NCBI RefSeq assembly: GCF_040546685.1
Contig: NZ_JBEPOH010000001.1
Location: 496,001-560,000 of the forward strand
Direction: 5' to 3'
Source of the DNA: Variovorax sp. OAS795
GTDB taxonomy: Bacteria > Pseudomonadota > Gammaproteobacteria > Burkholderiales > Burkholderiaceae_C
DNA length: 64,000 nucleotides
Numbering within the stretch: position 1 is the first letter of the stretch; each line of letters begins with the position of its first letter. The notes beneath the pieces are model-generated. The model was given only the letters and a program-made list of their open reading frames with translations. It was not told the origin of the DNA and ran no database searches. Positions 8,335-15,253 of the stretch are shown piece after piece. Made by a program: the position numbers and the translations under genes.

Positions 8335-8499
8335 GGAAGCTCCCCCGATGTTTTTGTTGGCGCCTGGCAGTCTGCTGGCGATCTGTGAAGAGACGGCGCT
8401 GTGTGTGAAGTCTGCGTGAAAACCGCACAGGCCCGCGCGGGGGCGCTACATCAATTCATGGTGCGTTGCGTTTGTCTGCGGCGCTGTTGTTCAGGGCGC

Positions 8500-8593
8500 G
8501 TGCACAGGTCACCGGGTACTCCCCTCCGCGAATGTCCCCCGGCTTCGCCTCCTCCTTTATTTCGCTGCGGGGAGCACCCGGCGCCCTGTGCAC
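8500..8593. repeat. Large imperfect inverted repeat in the gap 8335-8615
   Basis: The only structure I see in the 281-base gap between the A2M start and the SRPBCC stop. Arms of about 34 bases (8500-8533 and 8560-8593) match at roughly five bases in six; both ends carry GTGCACAGG or its complement, followed by a CCGGGT..CTCCCC core. The centre (about 8534-8559) is not palindromic. There is no transposase and no obvious target duplication. It resembles a non-autonomous palindromic intergenic repeat; whether other copies exist in the genome cannot be told from this window. Confidence 0.5.
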
Positions 8594-8615
8594 ACTAGGG
8601 GCGGCTGTCGTGCTG

Positions 8616-9122
8616 TCATGCCGCGTCACTCCCCCGTTGCAGTCGTTGCCACTCCACGACCTCGGCCGCATGCGCAGCCAGGAAGTCGCGCATGCGCCTG
8701 AAGCGCCGCTGCGTCTGCCGCGCAAAGATCCAAGCGACCACCGGCTCAAGCAGCCAACGCAATGGCTTCGGACCCGCCTCGATGGTGTAGACGTAGATCA
8801 GTACCGATCGGCCCGGTTGCGTGTCGCGGTGCCGCATCGACGCGGCCCAGCGGCTGAAGGGGAAGGATCGGCCGATCATCGAAGCCGCCGCCACATGCGG
8901 CCGGTCGAAGGTGACGAATCGCGTGCGCATCGACAGGGCGCGCAGCCATCCGCCACCGGTGTTCTCGGTTTCTGCGCCAACGAACGGACACGGTGCGCCG
9001 CCCACGACCCGGGCGTTGCCGACCAGCGAATCCCAGCGCGCACGCCAGACGTGATAGTGGAAGGCATCGAAGACCACCTCGGCCGGCGCCGGCATGTCGA
9101 ATTCAAAGCGCTGGTGTGCCAT
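8616..9122 (-). CDS. SRPBCC (START-like) family protein
   Basis: 168 aa. The N-terminus (FEFDMPAPAEVVFDAFHYHVWRARWDSLV) is the typical opening of SRPBCC/polyketide-cyclase folds, which make a hydrophobic ligand-binding cavity. No signal peptide is seen, so it is probably cytoplasmic or peripheral. The start at 9122 is well supported by AAGGGAGAGG just upstream. It is the last gene of the minus-strand run beginning with the SPFH gene at 15253. A hydrophobic stretch near residues 120-135 (LRWLLEPVVAWIFA) could bind membrane. The ligand is unknown; a lipid or polyamine-derived molecule would fit the neighbours, but that is speculation. Confidence 0.7.
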   Translation of the reverse strand: MAHQRFEFDMPAPAEVVFDAFHYHVWRARWDSLVGNARVVGGAPCPFVGAETENTGGGWLRALSMRTRFVTFDRPHVAAASMIGRSFPFSRWAASMRHRDTQPGRSVLIYVYTIEAGPKPLRWLLEPVVAWIFARQTQRRFRRMRDFLAAHAAEVVEWQRLQRGSDAA

Positions 9123-9264
9123 GGCCCCTCTCCCTTTCGTCCATCACATCGGTCACCATGCCCCATCGCACGAACTCGGGCTCGAACTCCGCAAGCGCAA
9201 GCAAACCGGCGCAGGCGTGCGCGCCGATGGGCAACGCATCGCCTCGTGCGAGCCGGCGGTTCAT
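9103..9264 (-). CDS. Possible small protein, 53 aa, coupled to its neighbours
   Basis: An ORF whose ATG overlaps the stop of the upstream FAD oxidoreductase (ATGA) and whose 3' end runs 20 bases into the SRPBCC gene. It fills the otherwise empty 138-base gap exactly. Composition is ordinary for this genome (Met-Asn-Arg-Arg start, an Ala/Leu-rich segment at residues 14-24, an acidic middle, no clear membrane span). There is no good Shine-Dalgarno, so translation would depend on coupling to the gene above. I do not recognise the sequence. It may be a genuine small protein or simply an open frame that carries the SRPBCC ribosome-binding site. Confidence 0.35.
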   Translation of the reverse strand: MNRRLARGDALPIGAHACAGLLALAEFEPEFVRWGMVTDVMDERERGHGTPAL

Positions 9265-10874
9265 GCAGCGCCCATGCCCGCCACATGCCCGCGCGTGAAG
9301 GCCTCCTCGAAGATCGAGTAGCCCGACCAGTCCGCATGCGCGAACGAGAGCCGGCCGGCGGCGACGCGGCCGCCTTGGGCCGCGCCGATGCGGGCCAGCA
9401 AACCCGGCGTGGGAATGGCCATGGCATGGCCATAGCGTGTGACCTCGATGCGTGTGGCGAGCGCGGGCAGGTCGGGGTGCGGTACCGACAGTTCCGCGAG
9501 AAGGTCGTCGCGCCAGCCGGTCCACGGGCGCTCCAGCAGCAGGCGGCGGCCATCGGCTCCGTCATGGCGGCTCGGGCCTAGCGGCCGATACCAGCTCAGG
9601 ACGGTGCCGCGCGGCGTGGGATCCAGCGACTGGTGGCGCGCATCCACGTACCCCAGGCCGCGCGTGCCGAACACCACGTTGTCCCAGCTCGGTGCGGCGC
9701 CCGCGCGGTCGGCGAGCGGCCCGCGCAGGTGCACGTTGGCGACCAGCCAGGGCGCGTAGCGCACATGCGCGGCGGCGCTGGCGAGCACGGAAGGCGGGTT
9801 CTCGACCACGCGCGCCGCAACGAACACGGGCAGCGCGACGATGCAGCGCTCGGCCTGCCAGCGGACCACCGATCGGGATGCGACATCCCACGCATCGACT
9901 TCGACACCGCCGCGCAGTTCGGCAATGCGGGTGACGACCTGGCCCGTGCGCAGCCGGTCACCGAGCGGCGTTGCCAGGCGCCGGGTGAGCCATCCGTTGC
10001 CTTCGGGCCAGGTGAGCACGCCGTCGCGCTCGGGGGTCGAATCGGCGCTGCCGCCCTTCGCATCGCCGGGCGCATGAAAGCCGTGGCGGCTTGCAAAATA
10101 GTGAATGCCGGCCCAGGCCGACACCTGCTCGATGCCCGCGCCGTAATCGTCGCGGCAGCAATAGTCGAGGTACCAGCGCAGCTGCACATCGCTGAAGCCT
10201 TCGTCGTCGAGCCAGCGCTCGAAGGGCAAGGCATCGAGCGCGAGCAGCTCGGGCGTCGGGGCCACGCGCAGCGTGGGGATGGCGAAGTGCGCCGCATGCT
10301 GCTGCGCATCGATCCGCTCGGCGAACTTGCGGTACTGGGCGTGCGTGCTGTCTCCCACGTCGTGCACGGGCAACAGGCCCTCCTGCCACTCGCCGCGAAA
10401 GAAAAGCCGCTCCTGGGGGCTGTGGCACAGGTGGCGTTCGTCGTATTCCCAGCGGCCCGCCACGCGCCGCCGCAGGCCGAGTTCTTCGAGCAGGTCCTGC
10501 ACTTCGGGTGCGTCGTCGTTGGGTACGGGCAGGTAGTGCGCACCGAGCGGGCAGGCGATGCCGTTGACCATGCCGCCGCGCGCGTTGCCGCCGGGCGTGT
10601 CCTCGAGTTCGAGCAGCGCGAAGTCCTCGATGCCCGACAGGCGCAGTGCACGCGCAGCCGCAAGGCCGGCCACGCCGCCGCCGGCAATCACCACGCGCGT
10701 GCGCTTCACTGCGGAAGGCGCCTGGCTCTTGAGTAAACCGTCGCGCATCGCATGGCCGCGTGCCACGTCGATGCCGGTGAAGCCACCTTCGATGGGAGGC
10801 ACCGGCGCCTCGCAGCCCGCCAGCGCGAGCGCGCCCGTCGCACCCGCCACGCCGAGAAAATCACGCCGTTGCAT
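9261..10874 (-). CDS. Tat-exported lipoprotein, FAD-dependent amine-oxidase-like
   Basis: 537 aa. The N-terminus has a twin-arginine motif (RRDFLGVAG) followed by a lipobox ending in LALAGC, which predicts export of the folded flavoprotein through Tat and lipid attachment. A Rossmann FAD motif follows at about residues 60-95 (VVIAGGGVAGLAAARAL, acidic residue at the end of strand 2, then PGGNARGG). This layout is typical of the NAD(P)-binding_8/amino-oxidase superfamily. The C-terminus (FAHADWSGYSIFEEAFTRG) matches the closing FAD-binding segment of that family. It lies 7 bases behind the aminopropyltransferase gene, so a polyamine or related amine is an attractive substrate. That is inference from context; the substrate is not known. 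Confidence 0.8.
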   Translation of the reverse strand: MQRRDFLGVAGATGALALAGCEAPVPPIEGGFTGIDVARGHAMRDGLLKSQAPSAVKRTRVVIAGGGVAGLAAARALRLSGIEDFALLELEDTPGGNARGGMVNGIACPLGAHYLPVPNDDAPEVQDLLEELGLRRRVAGRWEYDERHLCHSPQERLFFRGEWQEGLLPVHDVGDSTHAQYRKFAERIDAQQHAAHFAIPTLRVAPTPELLALDALPFERWLDDEGFSDVQLRWYLDYCCRDDYGAGIEQVSAWAGIHYFASRHGFHAPGDAKGGSADSTPERDGVLTWPEGNGWLTRRLATPLGDRLRTGQVVTRIAELRGGVEVDAWDVASRSVVRWQAERCIVALPVFVAARVVENPPSVLASAAAHVRYAPWLVANVHLRGPLADRAGAAPSWDNVVFGTRGLGYVDARHQSLDPTPRGTVLSWYRPLGPSRHDGADGRRLLLERPWTGWRDDLLAELSVPHPDLPALATRIEVTRYGHAMAIPTPGLLARIGAAQGGRVAAGRLSFAHADWSGYSIFEEAFTRGHVAGMGAA

Positions 10875-10881
10875 GCCGCGG

Positions 10882-12423
10882 CTAGTGCGTCATGACCTTG
10901 CCCCACTCTTGCTCATAGGTGGTGACAAGGGTCTGGTTGGAAAGGCGGTTCACTTCCGCCGGCACGCGCGCCATGTCGAGCGGAAAGTCGAACATCAGCG
11001 GCAATGTCGAAGGCGCCAGGAAGCGCAGGCCCGAAGGCAGCGCATCGGGCATCCGATAGGGCCGCCGGCTCGCGATGATGTAGCCCCATTCGCCGAAGCT
11101 CGGCACGTGGGCGTGATAGGGCGTGGCGCGCAGGCCGACCGATTCGATGGTGGCCGCCACGGTCCAGAAACTCTTGCGCGCGACGAGCGGCGAGGTGGTC
11201 TGGATCACCGCATAGCCGCTGGCGGAAAGGCGCTTTTCGAGCAGCCCGTAGAAGCTGTTGGTGTAGAGCTTGCCGATCGCGAAGTTGGTCGGGTCGGGAA
11301 AGTCGACCACGATCACGTCAAAAACATCCCCAGGCTGCTGCAGCCACTGGAACGCGTCCGTGTTGACGATCTTCACCTTCGGCGACGAGAGCGCATGCCC
11401 GTTGAGCGCCGCCAGGGTTTCATGGTCGGTGAAGAGCTTCGTCATGTTCGGGTCGAGCTCGACCAGCGTGACGGATTCGACCGAGGGGTACTTGAGGATC
11501 TCGCGCACCGCCATGCCGTCGCCGCCGCCGAGCACCGCGACTTTCTTCGGGGCGCCCTGCGCGGCCATGGCCGGGTGGACCAGCGCCTCGTGGTAGCGGT
11601 ACTCGTCGCGCTCGGCGAACTGCAGGTTCCCGTTCAGGAACAGGCGATGGCCCAGTTGGCCGCGCGTGACCACGATGCGCTGGTAGGGCGAGGTGGCGCT
11701 GAAGACGATGCGGTCCTGGTAGAACTTGTCTTCGGCCAGCGTGGTGATGTGGTCGGCCCAGACGAAGGCGCCGACGAGCGCAGCAAGCGCAAGAAAGCAC
11801 GCGAGCGCGTGGGCGCCGATGCGGCGCAGCTCATGCCGGAACAGCCACAGCGCCCACACGGCCACGGCCGCATTCATGATGCCGAACAGCAGCCCCGTGC
11901 GAATCATCCCGAGCTGCGGCACCAGGATGAGCGGAAACGCCACCGACACCGCGAGCGCGCCGAGGTAGTCGAAAGTGAGAACCTGCGACACCAGGTTCTT
12001 GAGCTGGATGTTGCGCTTGAGGATGCGCATCACGAGCGGAATCTCGAGCCCCACCAGCGTGCCGACCACCAGCACCAGCCCGTACAGCAGCAGCCGGAAC
12101 GCGCCGGGCACGTAGGCATTGGCGAGGAAAAGCAGGGCGGGAAGGGCGCCGCCGACAAGCGCCACGAGCAGCTCGATGCGCAAGAAATGGGCCGGCAGCT
12201 GGCGCTCGAAATAGCGCGAGAGCCAGGAGCCCACGCCCATGGCGAACAGGTAGGTGCCGATGATGGTGCTGAACTGCAGCACCGAATCGCCGAGCAGGTA
12301 GGAGCTCAGCGCGGCGGCGGTCAGTTCGTAGACCAGGCCGCATGCAGCGACCACGAACACGCTGGCGAGCAGCGCGATCTCGACGGGCTGCGGCCCGCGC
12401 GCATCGGTGGAACGCGCGGACAC
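10882..12423 (-). CDS. Membrane-fused polyamine aminopropyltransferase (spermidine synthase-like)
   Basis: About 513 aa. The first ~220 residues hold roughly seven hydrophobic segments (for example ALLASVFVVAACGLVYEL and LLLYGLVLVVGTLVGLEI). The C-terminal half is a spermidine-synthase methyltransferase-like fold: YQRIVV, then VAVLGGGDGMAVREILKY (SAM/dcSAM-binding loop), VELD, and the catalytic-type segment VVDFPDP. Soluble SpeE enzymes are about 285 aa and lack the membrane part. A TTG at 12441 overlaps the DUF350 stop, but GTG at 12423 has GGGGAGG five bases upstream and is preferred. The gene follows DUF350 and precedes an FAD oxidoreductase. No SAM decarboxylase (speD) is nearby, so the aminopropyl donor must come from elsewhere or the reaction differs. 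Confidence 0.88.
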   Translation of the reverse strand: MSARSTDARGPQPVEIALLASVFVVAACGLVYELTAAALSSYLLGDSVLQFSTIIGTYLFAMGVGSWLSRYFERQLPAHFLRIELLVALVGGALPALLFLANAYVPGAFRLLLYGLVLVVGTLVGLEIPLVMRILKRNIQLKNLVSQVLTFDYLGALAVSVAFPLILVPQLGMIRTGLLFGIMNAAVAVWALWLFRHELRRIGAHALACFLALAALVGAFVWADHITTLAEDKFYQDRIVFSATSPYQRIVVTRGQLGHRLFLNGNLQFAERDEYRYHEALVHPAMAAQGAPKKVAVLGGGDGMAVREILKYPSVESVTLVELDPNMTKLFTDHETLAALNGHALSSPKVKIVNTDAFQWLQQPGDVFDVIVVDFPDPTNFAIGKLYTNSFYGLLEKRLSASGYAVIQTTSPLVARKSFWTVAATIESVGLRATPYHAHVPSFGEWGYIIASRRPYRMPDALPSGLRFLAPSTLPLMFDFPLDMARVPAEVNRLSNQTLVTTYEQEWGKVMTH

Positions 12424-12437
12424 CGCCGCCTCCCCGC

Positions 12438-12656
12438 TCAATGGATCGCGGCTGCGACGATGACGCAGATGCCCAGGCTCATGGCGGCCACGACCATTCC
12501 GAGCGCCACGTTCTGCTTCTCGACGATCTCGCCCCAGAGGTCATAGGGCGTGAGCTTGTCGATGATGAGAAAGCAGAGCCAGAAGATCAGCACGCCAAGC
12601 AGCGCATACACGAGCGATCCGAGGACCACGCCCGGTTTCAGCCATTCAAATCCCAT
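12438..12656 (-). CDS. DUF350 family small membrane protein
   Basis: 72 aa with two hydrophobic helices (about residues 9-32 and 48-71) joined by a polar loop, the pattern of a single DUF350 unit (E. coli YjfL has repeated units). The start at 12656 has GGAGGT five bases upstream. Its stop overlaps the possible TTG start of the aminopropyltransferase, and only 59 bases separate it from the zinc-ribbon gene, so the genes are probably co-transcribed. Function of the family is unknown; genomic neighbourhoods link it to envelope-stress and PspA-type loci. Confidence 0.85.
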   Translation of the reverse strand: MGFEWLKPGVVLGSLVYALLGVLIFWLCFLIIDKLTPYDLWGEIVEKQNVALGMVVAAMSLGICVIVAAAIH

Positions 12657-12715
12657 GGGGACCTCCAGTCGTAGTAGCAGTAATAAGTGACATCAACGCG
12701 AACCTTCACCGTTCT

Positions 12716-14194
12716 TCATTTGTGGCCGCCGCCGCTCGAGTAGCCGCCGTACGACCCGCCGGAACTGCGCGATCCGCTGGACGAGCCGCTGCAGGTGCTC
12801 AGGATGACCAGCAGCACGATGACGACGATCACGATCAGGATGATGGTGCCGCAACCCAGGCCCGATGCGGCACTGACCGGCATCGCATCGCCGCGCACGA
12901 ACATGTCTTTCTTGTCGTCCAGCTTGAATGCGGCGGAGACCGCGCCGCTGTCCAGTTTGCTCCCGGAAGACCAGGTCAGCTCGTTGGCCGAGCGCTCCAT
13001 CGAGAGCAGCGCGGTGCCGTTGGCGAAGTCGCGGTTGAAGGTTTTCTGGCCGCGCTCCACCTGCCAGTAGAACTCGCCGGCCACGTAGGTGGTCTCGGCG
13101 TTGTAGGCGTACTGCTGGGTGTAGCGCTTGCCCAGGTAGGTGGCGCTGCTGCCGTTCTCGGCCATCACCGGCGCGCCGGTGGTCGGCTTGACCATGCTCC
13201 AGCCGTCCTCGGCGTCGACCAGGAAGCTGAAGCCGCGCTTCTTGTTGTACAGCAGGTATTCGTTCCAGCCGAAGTGCTCGTCGTCGCCGGGCTCCACGCC
13301 CATGCGGTGCTGGAATCCCACCACCTGCCACTGCGCGCCCTGCAGCTGGCCCATGCTGCCGATGGGGATGAGCGGCCGGACCGGCTCGTTCTGCTCGGCA
13401 TGCTTCAGCTCGCCGCCGATGCCTTGCGACAGGTCGATGATGCTGTTGCACGAGCCGCAGGTGATGCTCTTGCTGTCCGCCAGGTTGACCGAGACGGGCG
13501 CGCCACAGTTCGGGCAGTTGAAGGCGCGGCCCTTCTCGTCCTTGGCGGATTCGTCGCGCAACCCCGTGAGCTGCAGGTCTTCGAGCTGCACGGAGCGGCC
13601 CAGGTACGCGCCGGGCGGCTGGGTGCCGTAGTCGATGCTGAGCACCAGGCCCTTGTCGTTGCGCAGCTCGACCATGGGGAAGGGCCGGCCCAGCTCGGGC
13701 AGGTGCGGCAATTCGCCCTGGGCGGACAGCAGCGCCACCTGTTCGTTCGACGAAACGGTGTAGCTCTGGCCGTTGAACGCCGTGGTGGCGCCCACGCGCA
13801 GCTCGGTCGGCGGCGGCGCCTCGCGCTGCAGCTCGTAGGGCAGCGCGAAGACATAGGCGCCGTTGTCCTCGCTGAGGATGCCGGTGCGGTCGCCATCGAG
13901 CGCAGCGATCCATTCGGTCCAGCGCCCGCCCGGATTGCTGTACTGCAGCCGCCCGACGATGGTGAACGGCTGGTTCTGGATGCGGCCGGCGGCAAACAGC
14001 TGCAGCGGGCTGAAGTCGTCGAAAAGCTCCGCCATCTTGCCGATGCGCGCGAGCGTCTCGCCCTGGCGGACGACGGTGCTCTGGCAGTACGGGCAAACGG
14101 CGAAGGCCGATTGCGCCGACCTGAATTCGACCGGTGCGCCGCAGCCGGGGCAGGGCGCACGGTAGGCGCGCTCGGCGCCTGGTTGCTCAGCCAT
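12716..14194 (-). CDS. DUF4178 protein with two zinc ribbons and a C-terminal membrane anchor
   Basis: 492 aa. Two CxxC...CxxC zinc ribbons are visible: CPGCG..CPYC near the N-terminus (about residues 15-36) and CPNCG..CGSC near residues 232-255. Each is followed by a beta-rich region of the DUF4178 type. A strongly hydrophobic helix (GCGTIILIVIVVIVLLVILST, about 445-465) precedes a Ser/Gly-rich tail ending SSGGGHK. The layout predicts a tail-anchored protein with the ribbons in the cytoplasm. B. subtilis YdjG is a comparable zinc-ribbon membrane protein next to an SPFH gene. It starts 10 bases after the SPFH stop. The molecular role is unknown. Confidence 0.85.
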   Translation of the reverse strand: MAEQPGAERAYRAPCPGCGAPVEFRSAQSAFAVCPYCQSTVVRQGETLARIGKMAELFDDFSPLQLFAAGRIQNQPFTIVGRLQYSNPGGRWTEWIAALDGDRTGILSEDNGAYVFALPYELQREAPPPTELRVGATTAFNGQSYTVSSNEQVALLSAQGELPHLPELGRPFPMVELRNDKGLVLSIDYGTQPPGAYLGRSVQLEDLQLTGLRDESAKDEKGRAFNCPNCGAPVSVNLADSKSITCGSCNSIIDLSQGIGGELKHAEQNEPVRPLIPIGSMGQLQGAQWQVVGFQHRMGVEPGDDEHFGWNEYLLYNKKRGFSFLVDAEDGWSMVKPTTGAPVMAENGSSATYLGKRYTQQYAYNAETTYVAGEFYWQVERGQKTFNRDFANGTALLSMERSANELTWSSGSKLDSGAVSAAFKLDDKKDMFVRGDAMPVSAASGLGCGTIILIVIVVIVLLVILSTCSGSSSGSRSSGGSYGGYSSGGGHK

Positions 14195-14203
14195 TGCCGG
14201 TGC

Positions 14204-15253
14204 TTAGACCAGCTTCTTGAGCAGCTCCGCCTTCTTGGCGTCGAATTCTTCCTGCGTGAGGATGCCCTTGGTCTTGAGCTCGCCGAGCTTCTCGAGCGTG
14301 GTCATCACGTCGGCCGGGCTCACGACCGCCACGGCAGGCTGCTGCTGGGTCGCCGCCGCCTGGGCTGCCGCGTTCGGGCTCAGGCCCTGCGCGAGGTTCT
14401 GCGCCAGCACCTGGCCCAGCGCCACCCCGGCGCCCAGGCCCATGGCGTCGCCCGCGATGCCGCCGCCACCGCCCGCGCCCTCGGCGAACTTGGGGATCGC
14501 CTGCGCCGTCTGGTACTGCATGAACTTGCCCATGTCGTTGCCGACCATGCCCATGCCGATCTTCTGGTCGAGGATCTTCTGCAGCTCTTCGGGCAGCGAG
14601 ACGTTCTGGACCGTGATGTTCTCGAGCTTGATGCCGATCTTCTCGAACTCGGGCACCAGCTGCGCCGCCAGCGCCTGCGCAAACTGGATCTGGTTGGCCG
14701 CGAGGTCGAGGAAGGGCACGCCGCTGGCGGCGATGGCATTGCTGATGTTCTGCAGCACCAGGCCGCGCAGCTGGCCGTCGAGGTCGGCCACGCTGTAGAT
14801 CTCGCGCGTGCCGGAGATCTCCGTGTGGAACAGCTTGGCGTCTCCGATGCGGAAGCTGTAGTTGCCGAAGGCGCGCAGGCGCACGGCACCGAAGTCCTTG
14901 TCGCGGATGGTGATGGGCTGCGGCGTGCCCCACTTCTGGTCGACCTGCTGGCGCGTGCTGAAGAAGTAGACGTCGCTCTTGAACGGGGACTCGAACAGCT
15001 TGTCCCAGTTCTTCAGGTACGTGAGCACGGGCAGGGTCTGCGTCGTGAGCTTGTACATGCCGGGGCCGAACACGTCGGCCACCTGGCCTTCGTTGACGAA
15101 CACCGCCACCTGCGACTCGCGCACGGTGAGCGAGGCGCCGTTCTGGATTTCCATCTCGGCCATCGGGAACCGCCAGGCCAGCGTGCCGTCGCCGGTCTCG
15201 GTCCACTGGATGATGTCGATGAACTGTTTCTTGATGAAATCCATCAGGGCCAT
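14204..15253 (-). CDS. SPFH-domain protein with C-terminal SHOCT motif (YdjI-like)
   Basis: 349 aa. The N-terminal two thirds form an SPFH/band-7-like domain of the 'virion core protein' type (MALMDFIKKQFIDIIQW, ESQVAVFVNEGQ, GPGMYKL, IRDKDFGAVRLRAFGNYSF). A Gly/Ala-rich linker follows (about 255-310), then a SHOCT helix pair (LEKLGELKTKGILTQEEFDAKKAELLKKL). Such proteins assemble on membranes as scaffolds; B. subtilis YdjI recruits a PspA protein. An upstream in-frame ATG at 15298 exists, but 15253 has GAGGAG at good spacing and matches the family N-terminus. It is the first gene of the minus-strand run, divergent from maeB across about 165 bases. Confidence 0.88.
   Translation of the reverse strand: MALMDFIKKQFIDIIQWTETGDGTLAWRFPMAEMEIQNGASLTVRESQVAVFVNEGQVADVFGPGMYKLTTQTLPVLTYLKNWDKLFESPFKSDVYFFSTRQQVDQKWGTPQPITIRDKDFGAVRLRAFGNYSFRIGDAKLFHTEISGTREIYSVADLDGQLRGLVLQNISNAIAASGVPFLDLAANQIQFAQALAAQLVPEFEKIGIKLENITVQNVSLPEELQKILDQKIGMGMVGNDMGKFMQYQTAQAIPKFAEGAGGGGGIAGDAMGLGAGVALGQVLAQNLAQGLSPNAAAQAAATQQQPAVAVVSPADVMTTLEKLGELKTKGILTQEEFDAKKAELLKKLV

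Follow-up and report, generated by a model that had tools for sequence, protein, structure and literature searches.

Published operons and the Variovorax locus

The gene cluster studied here, from Variovorax sp. OAS795, encodes a spermidine-synthase-like protein (SpeE) fused to seven predicted transmembrane helices (7TM-SpeE), and lies in a stretch of 64,000 nucleotides (contig NZ_JBEPOH010000001.1, positions 496,001 to 560,000, forward strand), hereafter called the window. Clusters of an S-adenosylmethionine (AdoMet) decarboxylase (AdoMetDC, class 1b or class 2), an MFS-SpdSyn fusion and DUF350 were reportedly described by Li et al. 2019 (Biochem J 476:2579). The AdoMet decarboxylases are said to have been functional there, no spermidine was reportedly found, and the fusion is said to have failed to complement E. 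coli speE. Its focus was reportedly not on the SPFH, ZnR-DUF4178 and twin-arginine-exported (Tat) flavin adenine dinucleotide (FAD) protein partners.

In the sections of PMC11237479 (mSystems 2024) that treat such operons, one group consists of a CesT/Tir-PspA operon with 7TM-SpeE, DUF350, DUF4178 and a lipoprotein (AAN56744, AAN56746, AAN56747). Another group is built around an ATP-grasp protein resembling glutathionylspermidine synthetase, and it includes a variant in which a band-7/SHOCT protein replaces the CesT/Tir-PspA dyad and in which an AdoMet decarboxylase and a polyamine oxidase are present. For aminopropylation of other substrates these sections cite the same 2019 study. Operons of this kind are thus already published, and the cluster in itself adds one more arrangement of familiar components.

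The band-7/SHOCT variant and our locus have in common a Band-7 plus SHOCT protein instead of PspA, an AdoMet decarboxylase (SpeD), an amine-oxidase-type FAD protein and DUF350. The text on the variant assigns neither 7TM-SpeE nor DUF4178 to it, whereas the window has both. The variant is described with two transmembrane helices before SHOCT; in contrast, only a weakly hydrophobic Gly/Ala stretch around residues 268-275 (a weak hydropathy signal) precedes SHOCT in the window, and SpeD stands outside the cluster, unlike in the variant. An ATP-grasp ligase of the parent group was not found among the window's six genes; no genome-wide search for it was made. With the CesT/Tir-PspA operon the window shares 7TM-SpeE, DUF350 and DUF4178 together, but it has no PspA, its DUF4178 is double and carries zinc ribbons, and a FAD gene is added. 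The B. subtilis ydjF operon, as PMC11237479 describes it, likewise combines a Band-7 protein with a double zinc-ribbon membrane protein; in contrast to that operon, the window has no PspA, and DUF4178 and SpeE replace the YpeB-related domain and the TPM protein. We consider it likely that the window holds a relative of the published phage-shock-protein (PSP)-linked AdoMet-decarboxylase/7TM-SpeE operons that lacks PspA, has band-7/SHOCT instead and combines features of both groups. This placement is held less firmly because PMC11237479 lists the band-7/SHOCT variant under the ATP-grasp group. As far as our searches reached, new here are the topology and cysteine evidence for SpeE, the invariant differences at its acceptor site, the tally of SPFH against PspA with the FAD gene following SPFH, and an explanation for a small open reading frame (ORF) in the cluster.

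The core of the cluster is made up of five genes, given here in their order of transcription with lengths in amino acids (aa):

14204..15253, minus strand: SPFH/Band_7_1 protein with C-terminal SHOCT, 349 aa (PF13421, E 9e-78; PF09851 SHOCT)
12716..14194, minus strand: tandem zinc-ribbon plus DUF4178 protein with a predicted C-terminal membrane helix, 492 aa (PF13785, two stretches)
12438..12656, minus strand: DUF350 membrane protein with two hydrophobic stretches, 72 aa (PF03994, E 6e-14; hydropathy)
10882..12441, minus strand: SpeE-like aminopropyltransferase with seven N-terminal membrane helices, 519 aa, TTG start (PF01564, E 4e-36; NF002956)
9261..10874, minus strand: Tat-exported FAD protein of the amine-oxidase superfamily, likely a lipoprotein, 537 aa (PF01593, E 1e-16)

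The original prediction had been made from the DNA sequence by itself and listed six genes in one direction with spacings of -4 to 138 bases. All six were present on the minus strand, with gaps of 9, 59, -4, 7 and 138 bases from SPFH to the last gene (SRPBCC, described below), and their domains were confirmed by Pfam and, for SpeE, by NCBIfam. For a test of gene order, the best 80 of 544 SpeE relatives in genome contigs were taken, which by title are mostly Variovorax and Acidovorax; the window SpeE is 96% identical to that of the Variovorax loci. SPFH, DUF4178, DUF350, SpeE and FAD were found in the same order and on one strand in 76/80 loci, a figure that measures conservation among close relatives. 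Of the four loci in which the set is incomplete, L050, L076 and L078 extend beyond SpeE on its upstream side by only 0.15, 2.5 and 0.7 kb. DUF350 and SpeE are separated by 1.4-7.5 kb in 10/76 loci and SpeE and FAD by about 5 kb in 10/79 (negative SpeE-FAD gaps in this tally are local alignment artefacts). Because the order outlasts these insertions, we regard the core as a unit. The scattering among relatives that would have spoken against the predicted functional unit was not seen, and there is good evidence that the five genes are a real unit.

The inserted DNA was inspected in a few loci. Between DUF350 and SpeE, L083:2690-8189 encodes a ResIII protein of type III restriction-like character together with a DNA methylase, N6_N4_Mtase (Pfam, L083), and ORFs resembling this insert occupy the same position in L057 and L081. 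The DUF350-SpeE gap has the look of a site at which defence-like genes insert. Between SpeE and FAD we found a hybrid MHYT/PAS sensor kinase (L079:11683-16047; genes checked in L079 and L065) and, within the insert at L065:11658-16405, an HD-type response regulator (Pfam on L065).

A simple scan of the locus for sigma-70-like sites found none, with 0.8 expected. The corresponding scan for terminator-like sites gave 9 against 3.5 expected, among them one at the SpeE/FAD junction (10875-10862) and another at 9222-9209; such pattern matches do not decide co-transcription.

Topology and active site of the membrane SpeE

SpeE matched NF002956 (membrane polyamine aminopropyltransferase) with 689.9 bits, above the cut-off of 472, and remained below the cut-off of TIGR00417 (spermidine synthase; 148.5 bits against 249.55). 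Its nearest sequence matches in the PDB were 1uir, a polyamine aminopropyltransferase that we take to be the T. thermophilus enzyme, and thermospermine synthase. A second PF01564 match in the genome (L002; G000:C1:4705730-4705987) was weak and has no GGGDG motif. With the PF01564 and NF002956 matches and seven helices by hydropathy, the earlier description of a polyamine synthase fused to about seven membrane helices held. Two parts of the protein are used below:

11752..12384, minus strand: seven-helix membrane domain, residues 20-230 (hydropathy)
11056..11715, minus strand: SpeE catalytic core, residues 243-462, no cysteine (aligned rows)

In a phylum-wide sample of 249 genomes, an NF002956-type SpeE above cut-off was found in 27, the window's genome included, and one row per positive genome made up the membrane SpeE set. 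As a control, 22 soluble SpeE sequences were aligned. These were 20 sequences chosen from the below-cut-off matches plus three SpeD-SpeE fusions, minus L165, a wrong-frame ORF.

Six of the helices were found at the same positions in 27/27 membrane SpeE rows and the seventh in 26/27, while an eighth helix at 132-160 was seen by hydropathy in none of the 27. The density of lysine and arginine was higher on the face of loops 2-3, 4-5 and 6-7 in 27/27 rows when the loops were padded by 4 residues, and in 24/27 without padding. Positively charged loops face the cytoplasm (the positive-inside rule). Because the positive loops lie on the 2-3/4-5/6-7 face, the C-terminal catalytic domain of SpeE is predicted to be outside. 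Cysteine content is an independent sign that agrees with a predicted outside position. The catalytic core was free of cysteine in 24/27 membrane SpeE against 0/22 soluble SpeE, and in the membrane set only 3 cysteines were counted in 6153 core residues compared with 58 in 5907 residues of the membrane domain. The active site of SpeE is thus predicted to be periplasmic, on the same face as the Tat-exported FAD protein.

The aligned active sites were compared next to each other. Asp308 (in GGGDG), Asp380 and Asp383 were kept in 27/27 membrane SpeE, so that the acids of the GGG[DE]G and DxxDP motifs are present. Around them, Pro382 was found in 27/27 membrane SpeE where 21/22 soluble SpeE have Thr, and Phe449 in 27/27 where Tyr stands in 22/22 soluble SpeE. 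We take the latter position to be that of the acceptor-site Tyr of the P-x-Y motif in soluble SpeE. By alignment, the acceptor-site residues of membrane SpeE differ invariantly from those of soluble SpeE.

Partner genes across genomes

The window's genome encodes one SpeD (G000:C1:492022-492375), just outside the window, 12.2 kb from the near end of the cluster and 14.5 kb from SpeE. Its sequence contains SHLCIHTWPE and a downstream cysteine, whose serine, histidine and cysteine we take to be AdoMet decarboxylase motif residues. AdoMet decarboxylase co-occurs with membrane SpeE. In the 249-genome sample, a class 1 enzyme was found in 22/27 genomes with membrane SpeE and in 47/222 without it (Fisher 9e-10, uncorrected for kinship). 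A class 2 enzyme (PF01536) fills 3 of the 5 class 1 gaps, in distant genomes (L159, L160, L161). Among the sampled genomes of the window's family, SpeD was present in 6/6 SpeE-positive and 0/2 SpeE-negative genomes. Fusions of SpeD followed by soluble SpeE were also observed as single frames, of 448 aa in L148, 451 aa in L152 and 410 aa in L005; the genomes of L148 and L152 have membrane SpeE in addition. At L087:8010-10515, SpeD is followed directly by what we take from their sequences to be sugar-nucleotidyltransferase-like and aminopeptidase P-like genes.

The 26 other loci with membrane SpeE were examined over about 7 to 19.5 kb each. Genes were called there with hidden Markov models (HMMs) trained on close relatives and with phmmer, and by Pfam on single genes of L101, L103, L113 and L114. 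Parts of the core recur across these 26 more distant genomes. SPFH was found in 7 of the loci, PspA in 10, both in none and neither in 9. SpeD was inside the examined region in 6/7 SPFH-type loci. The FAD gene was present in 9/26, namely in 6 of the 7 SPFH loci and in 0 of the 10 PspA loci. Among 5 other loci of the window's family, SPFH was found in 2 (L092, L098), DUF350 and DUF4178 in 4, and FAD in 5. The PspA-type locus L114 has the order SpeD, CesT/Tir, PspA, DUF4178, DUF350, SpeE, with small genes between, a layout like that of the second group of PMC11237479 (CesT/Tir-PspA with 7TM-SpeE) as presented in the sections on that group.

PspA was then searched for genome-wide. The window's whole genome gave 0 PF04012 matches, and the same search was positive in 9/14 control genomes; in 5/7 SPFH-type genomes PspA was likewise not found. 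The statement that no PspA is present in the cluster therefore extends to the entire genome. The link to PspA-type envelope-stress loci drawn in the original prediction was well placed, in view of the related PSP operons described in the relevant sections of PMC11237479.

The products of the scaffold genes and the FAD gene were analysed by alignment. The SPFH protein starts with a conserved MALMDF, shared with L057, L065 and L079. The DUF4178 protein consists of two zinc-ribbon plus DUF4178 units followed by one predicted helix at 448-467, and its AlphaFold2 model has a mean pLDDT of 75.4.

14084..14152, minus strand: first zinc ribbon, Cys15, 18, 34 and 37 (sequence)
13448..13516, minus strand: second zinc ribbon, Cys227, 230, 246 and 249 (Cys invariant in 30 aligned rows)
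10812..10874, minus strand: twin-arginine signal and lipobox ending at Cys21 of the FAD protein, residues 1-21 (34 aligned rows)

The two ribbons and the C-terminal helix fit the predicted tail-anchored double zinc-ribbon protein, a description that was incomplete in that each ribbon is paired with DUF4178. Two separate ORFs were matched by the DUF4178 HMM in L099, L100, L104 and L106; the tandem form of the window may therefore be a gene fusion.

In the FAD protein, the twin arginine was found in 31/34 aligned rows and the lipobox pattern in 28/34, with 3 rows cut at the N-terminus. Together with the PF01593 match, which passed the cut-off, these signals support the predicted exported FAD protein, likely a lipoprotein. 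It has the amine-oxidase fold; its fold matches also include phytoene desaturase, renalase and protoporphyrinogen oxidase. The conserved lysine of amine oxidases, which we take to be an active-site residue, aligns with Asn380 in both HMMER alignments that extend to this position (sequence-level alignments). Position 380 is Asn in 31, Ala in 2 and Ser in 1 of the 34 rows, and the FAD protein possibly does without the amine-oxidase lysine.

Behind the FAD gene, two further reading frames had been counted as part of the cluster:

9103..9264, minus strand: remnant ORF of 53 aa that overlaps the stop codon of FAD (similar to the C-terminus of the Sacchrp_dh_NADP gene of relatives)
8616..9122, minus strand: SRPBCC protein (Polyketide_cyc2), lineage-restricted neighbour outside the core (PF10604, E 5e-7)

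Neither belongs to the core. SRPBCC was found in 7/80 close loci; in 57 of the 80, FAD is present and followed by 4.5 kb or more of sequence. In relatives a gene of about 375 aa with a Sacchrp_dh_NADP domain (Pfam on L009) lies between FAD and SRPBCC, and alignment to L008 and L009 revealed that some 970 bp are missing from the window at the 9260/9259 boundary. What had been listed as a possible small gene is hence the tail of a lost saccharopine-dehydrogenase-like gene. A second deletion, of about 900 bp at 8615/8611, was found by alignment to L009. Together the two gaps account for the loss of the saccharopine-dehydrogenase-like gene and of two small membrane-protein genes. The genes after the 375-aa gene of relatives are presumably DoxX-like and DUF2269-like. 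SRPBCC, the saccharopine-dehydrogenase-like gene and those that follow are a variable tail. A GC-rich stretch at window 8456-8600 recurs near L009:15644-15904 and is possibly a repeat element beside the second deletion. Just downstream (window 8334-2329; L087:13937-11970) lie genes that we take to encode an alpha-2-macroglobulin-like and a penicillin-binding-protein-1C-like protein.

Proposed mechanism and alternatives

These data can be joined into a mechanism that we put forward tentatively, thinking it somewhat likelier to fail as a whole than to hold. SpeD would make decarboxylated AdoMet (dcAdoMet) in the cytosol, and the donor would cross the inner membrane through the seven-helix domain of SpeE, DUF350 or both. 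The catalytic domain of SpeE, predicted to be periplasmic, would pass the aminopropyl group to an acceptor in the envelope other than putrescine. On the same face, the Tat-exported FAD lipoprotein would oxidise what SpeE makes, or a related amine. A scaffold at the inner face would be formed by SPFH-SHOCT and the tail-anchored ZnR-DUF4178 protein, in the role that PspA and CesT/Tir have in sister operons, as their exchange suggests. A published precedent for a seven-helix SpeE-fold enzyme that acts on secreted proteins is fungal NHMT (see below). A dcAdoMet-dependent modification of the envelope is the likelier product compared with a free polyamine, although unproven. Its specific form, in which a lipid head group, lipopolysaccharide, peptidoglycan or a lipoprotein would be aminopropylated in the periplasm with exported dcAdoMet and then oxidised by the FAD lipoprotein in SPFH-type systems, is possible but doubtful.

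Several observations weigh against this mechanism. A periplasmic AdoMet-type enzyme is unusual, the topology is a prediction from sequence, and the seven-helix domain and DUF350 are no more than candidate donor transporters. SpeD is outside the cluster in this genome, and 2 of the 26 other genomes with membrane SpeE have neither class of AdoMet decarboxylase. Of the six genomes from the window's family, G142 and G229 encode SpeD solely as a fusion with soluble SpeE; these fusions weigh against an exclusive pairing of SpeD with membrane SpeE. Several cysteines are present in the FAD protein, which possibly also lacks the amine-oxidase lysine. None of the 10 PspA-type loci contains the FAD gene, nor does the SPFH-type L103, and it is therefore not essential to the wider system. 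Conservation is weaker beyond the close relatives, and among these L080 lacks the other core genes although its sequence covers 10 kb upstream of SpeE. The mutual exclusion of SPFH and PspA reached p 0.017 with few and related loci and with HMMs from close relatives, and 9/26 distant loci have neither.

Ordinary polyamine synthesis was considered as an alternative, with the fusion as a membrane-anchored spermidine (or thermospermine-like) synthase that has a cytosolic active site and SpeD as its partner. The genome has no other strong SpeE than the fusion, the three catalytic aspartates are kept, SpeD has its motif residues, and the nearest PDB matches as well as the NCBIfam name point to aminopropyltransferases. 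In contrast, the positive-inside and cysteine data place the catalytic domain outside, the acceptor-site residues differ in 27/27 rows, two genomes encode a SpeD-SpeE fusion besides, and such membrane fusions reportedly fail to complement E. coli speE, which makes this explanation unlikely. The claim that the cluster makes and then oxidises a polyamine at the membrane stood in part. The two enzymes do belong to polyamine-related superfamilies, and the FAD enzyme could tune surface polyamines or, when the envelope is stressed, generate an aldehyde or a peroxide. However, the acceptor-site differences and the predicted periplasmic core render a free polyamine doubtful as the SpeE product, the amine-oxidase lysine aligns with Asn380, and the fold matches of the FAD protein extend well past amine oxidases. 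We judge such a make-and-oxidise route rather unlikely.

A modification of proteins or peptides, in which exported proteins would be alkylated N-terminally or on a side chain, would follow the example of fungal NHMT. According to PMC10349129, NHMT is an endoplasmic-reticulum-resident methyltransferase with seven helices followed by a SpeE-fold domain, the layout of membrane SpeE, and it modifies secreted proteins within the secretory pathway. However, at the dcAdoMet-binding acid of the GxG(D/E)G motif NHMT has Ile and membrane SpeE has Asp in 27/27 rows, pointing to dcAdoMet, and homologues of the NHMT 7TM domain are reported there only from fungi; a function of this type would be improbable here. 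Finally, the genes may be mere neighbours, in line with the separate SpeD, the insertions that interrupt the cluster in some loci (Acidovorax and related), and the two terminator-like sites at or after the SpeE/FAD junction. Since the order outlasts the insertions (76/80) and portions of the cluster reappear in distant genomes, an absence of any joint function is very improbable.

A periplasmic SpeE, if true, would explain the company of membrane-stress scaffolds and an exported FAD enzyme. It would also narrow the search for the acceptor from cytosolic polyamines to constituents of the envelope, which is directly testable. If an envelope constituent is indeed aminopropylated in the periplasm, decarboxylated AdoMet would be used outside the cytoplasm, and PspA/SPFH stress scaffolds would be linked to a new way of modifying the envelope.

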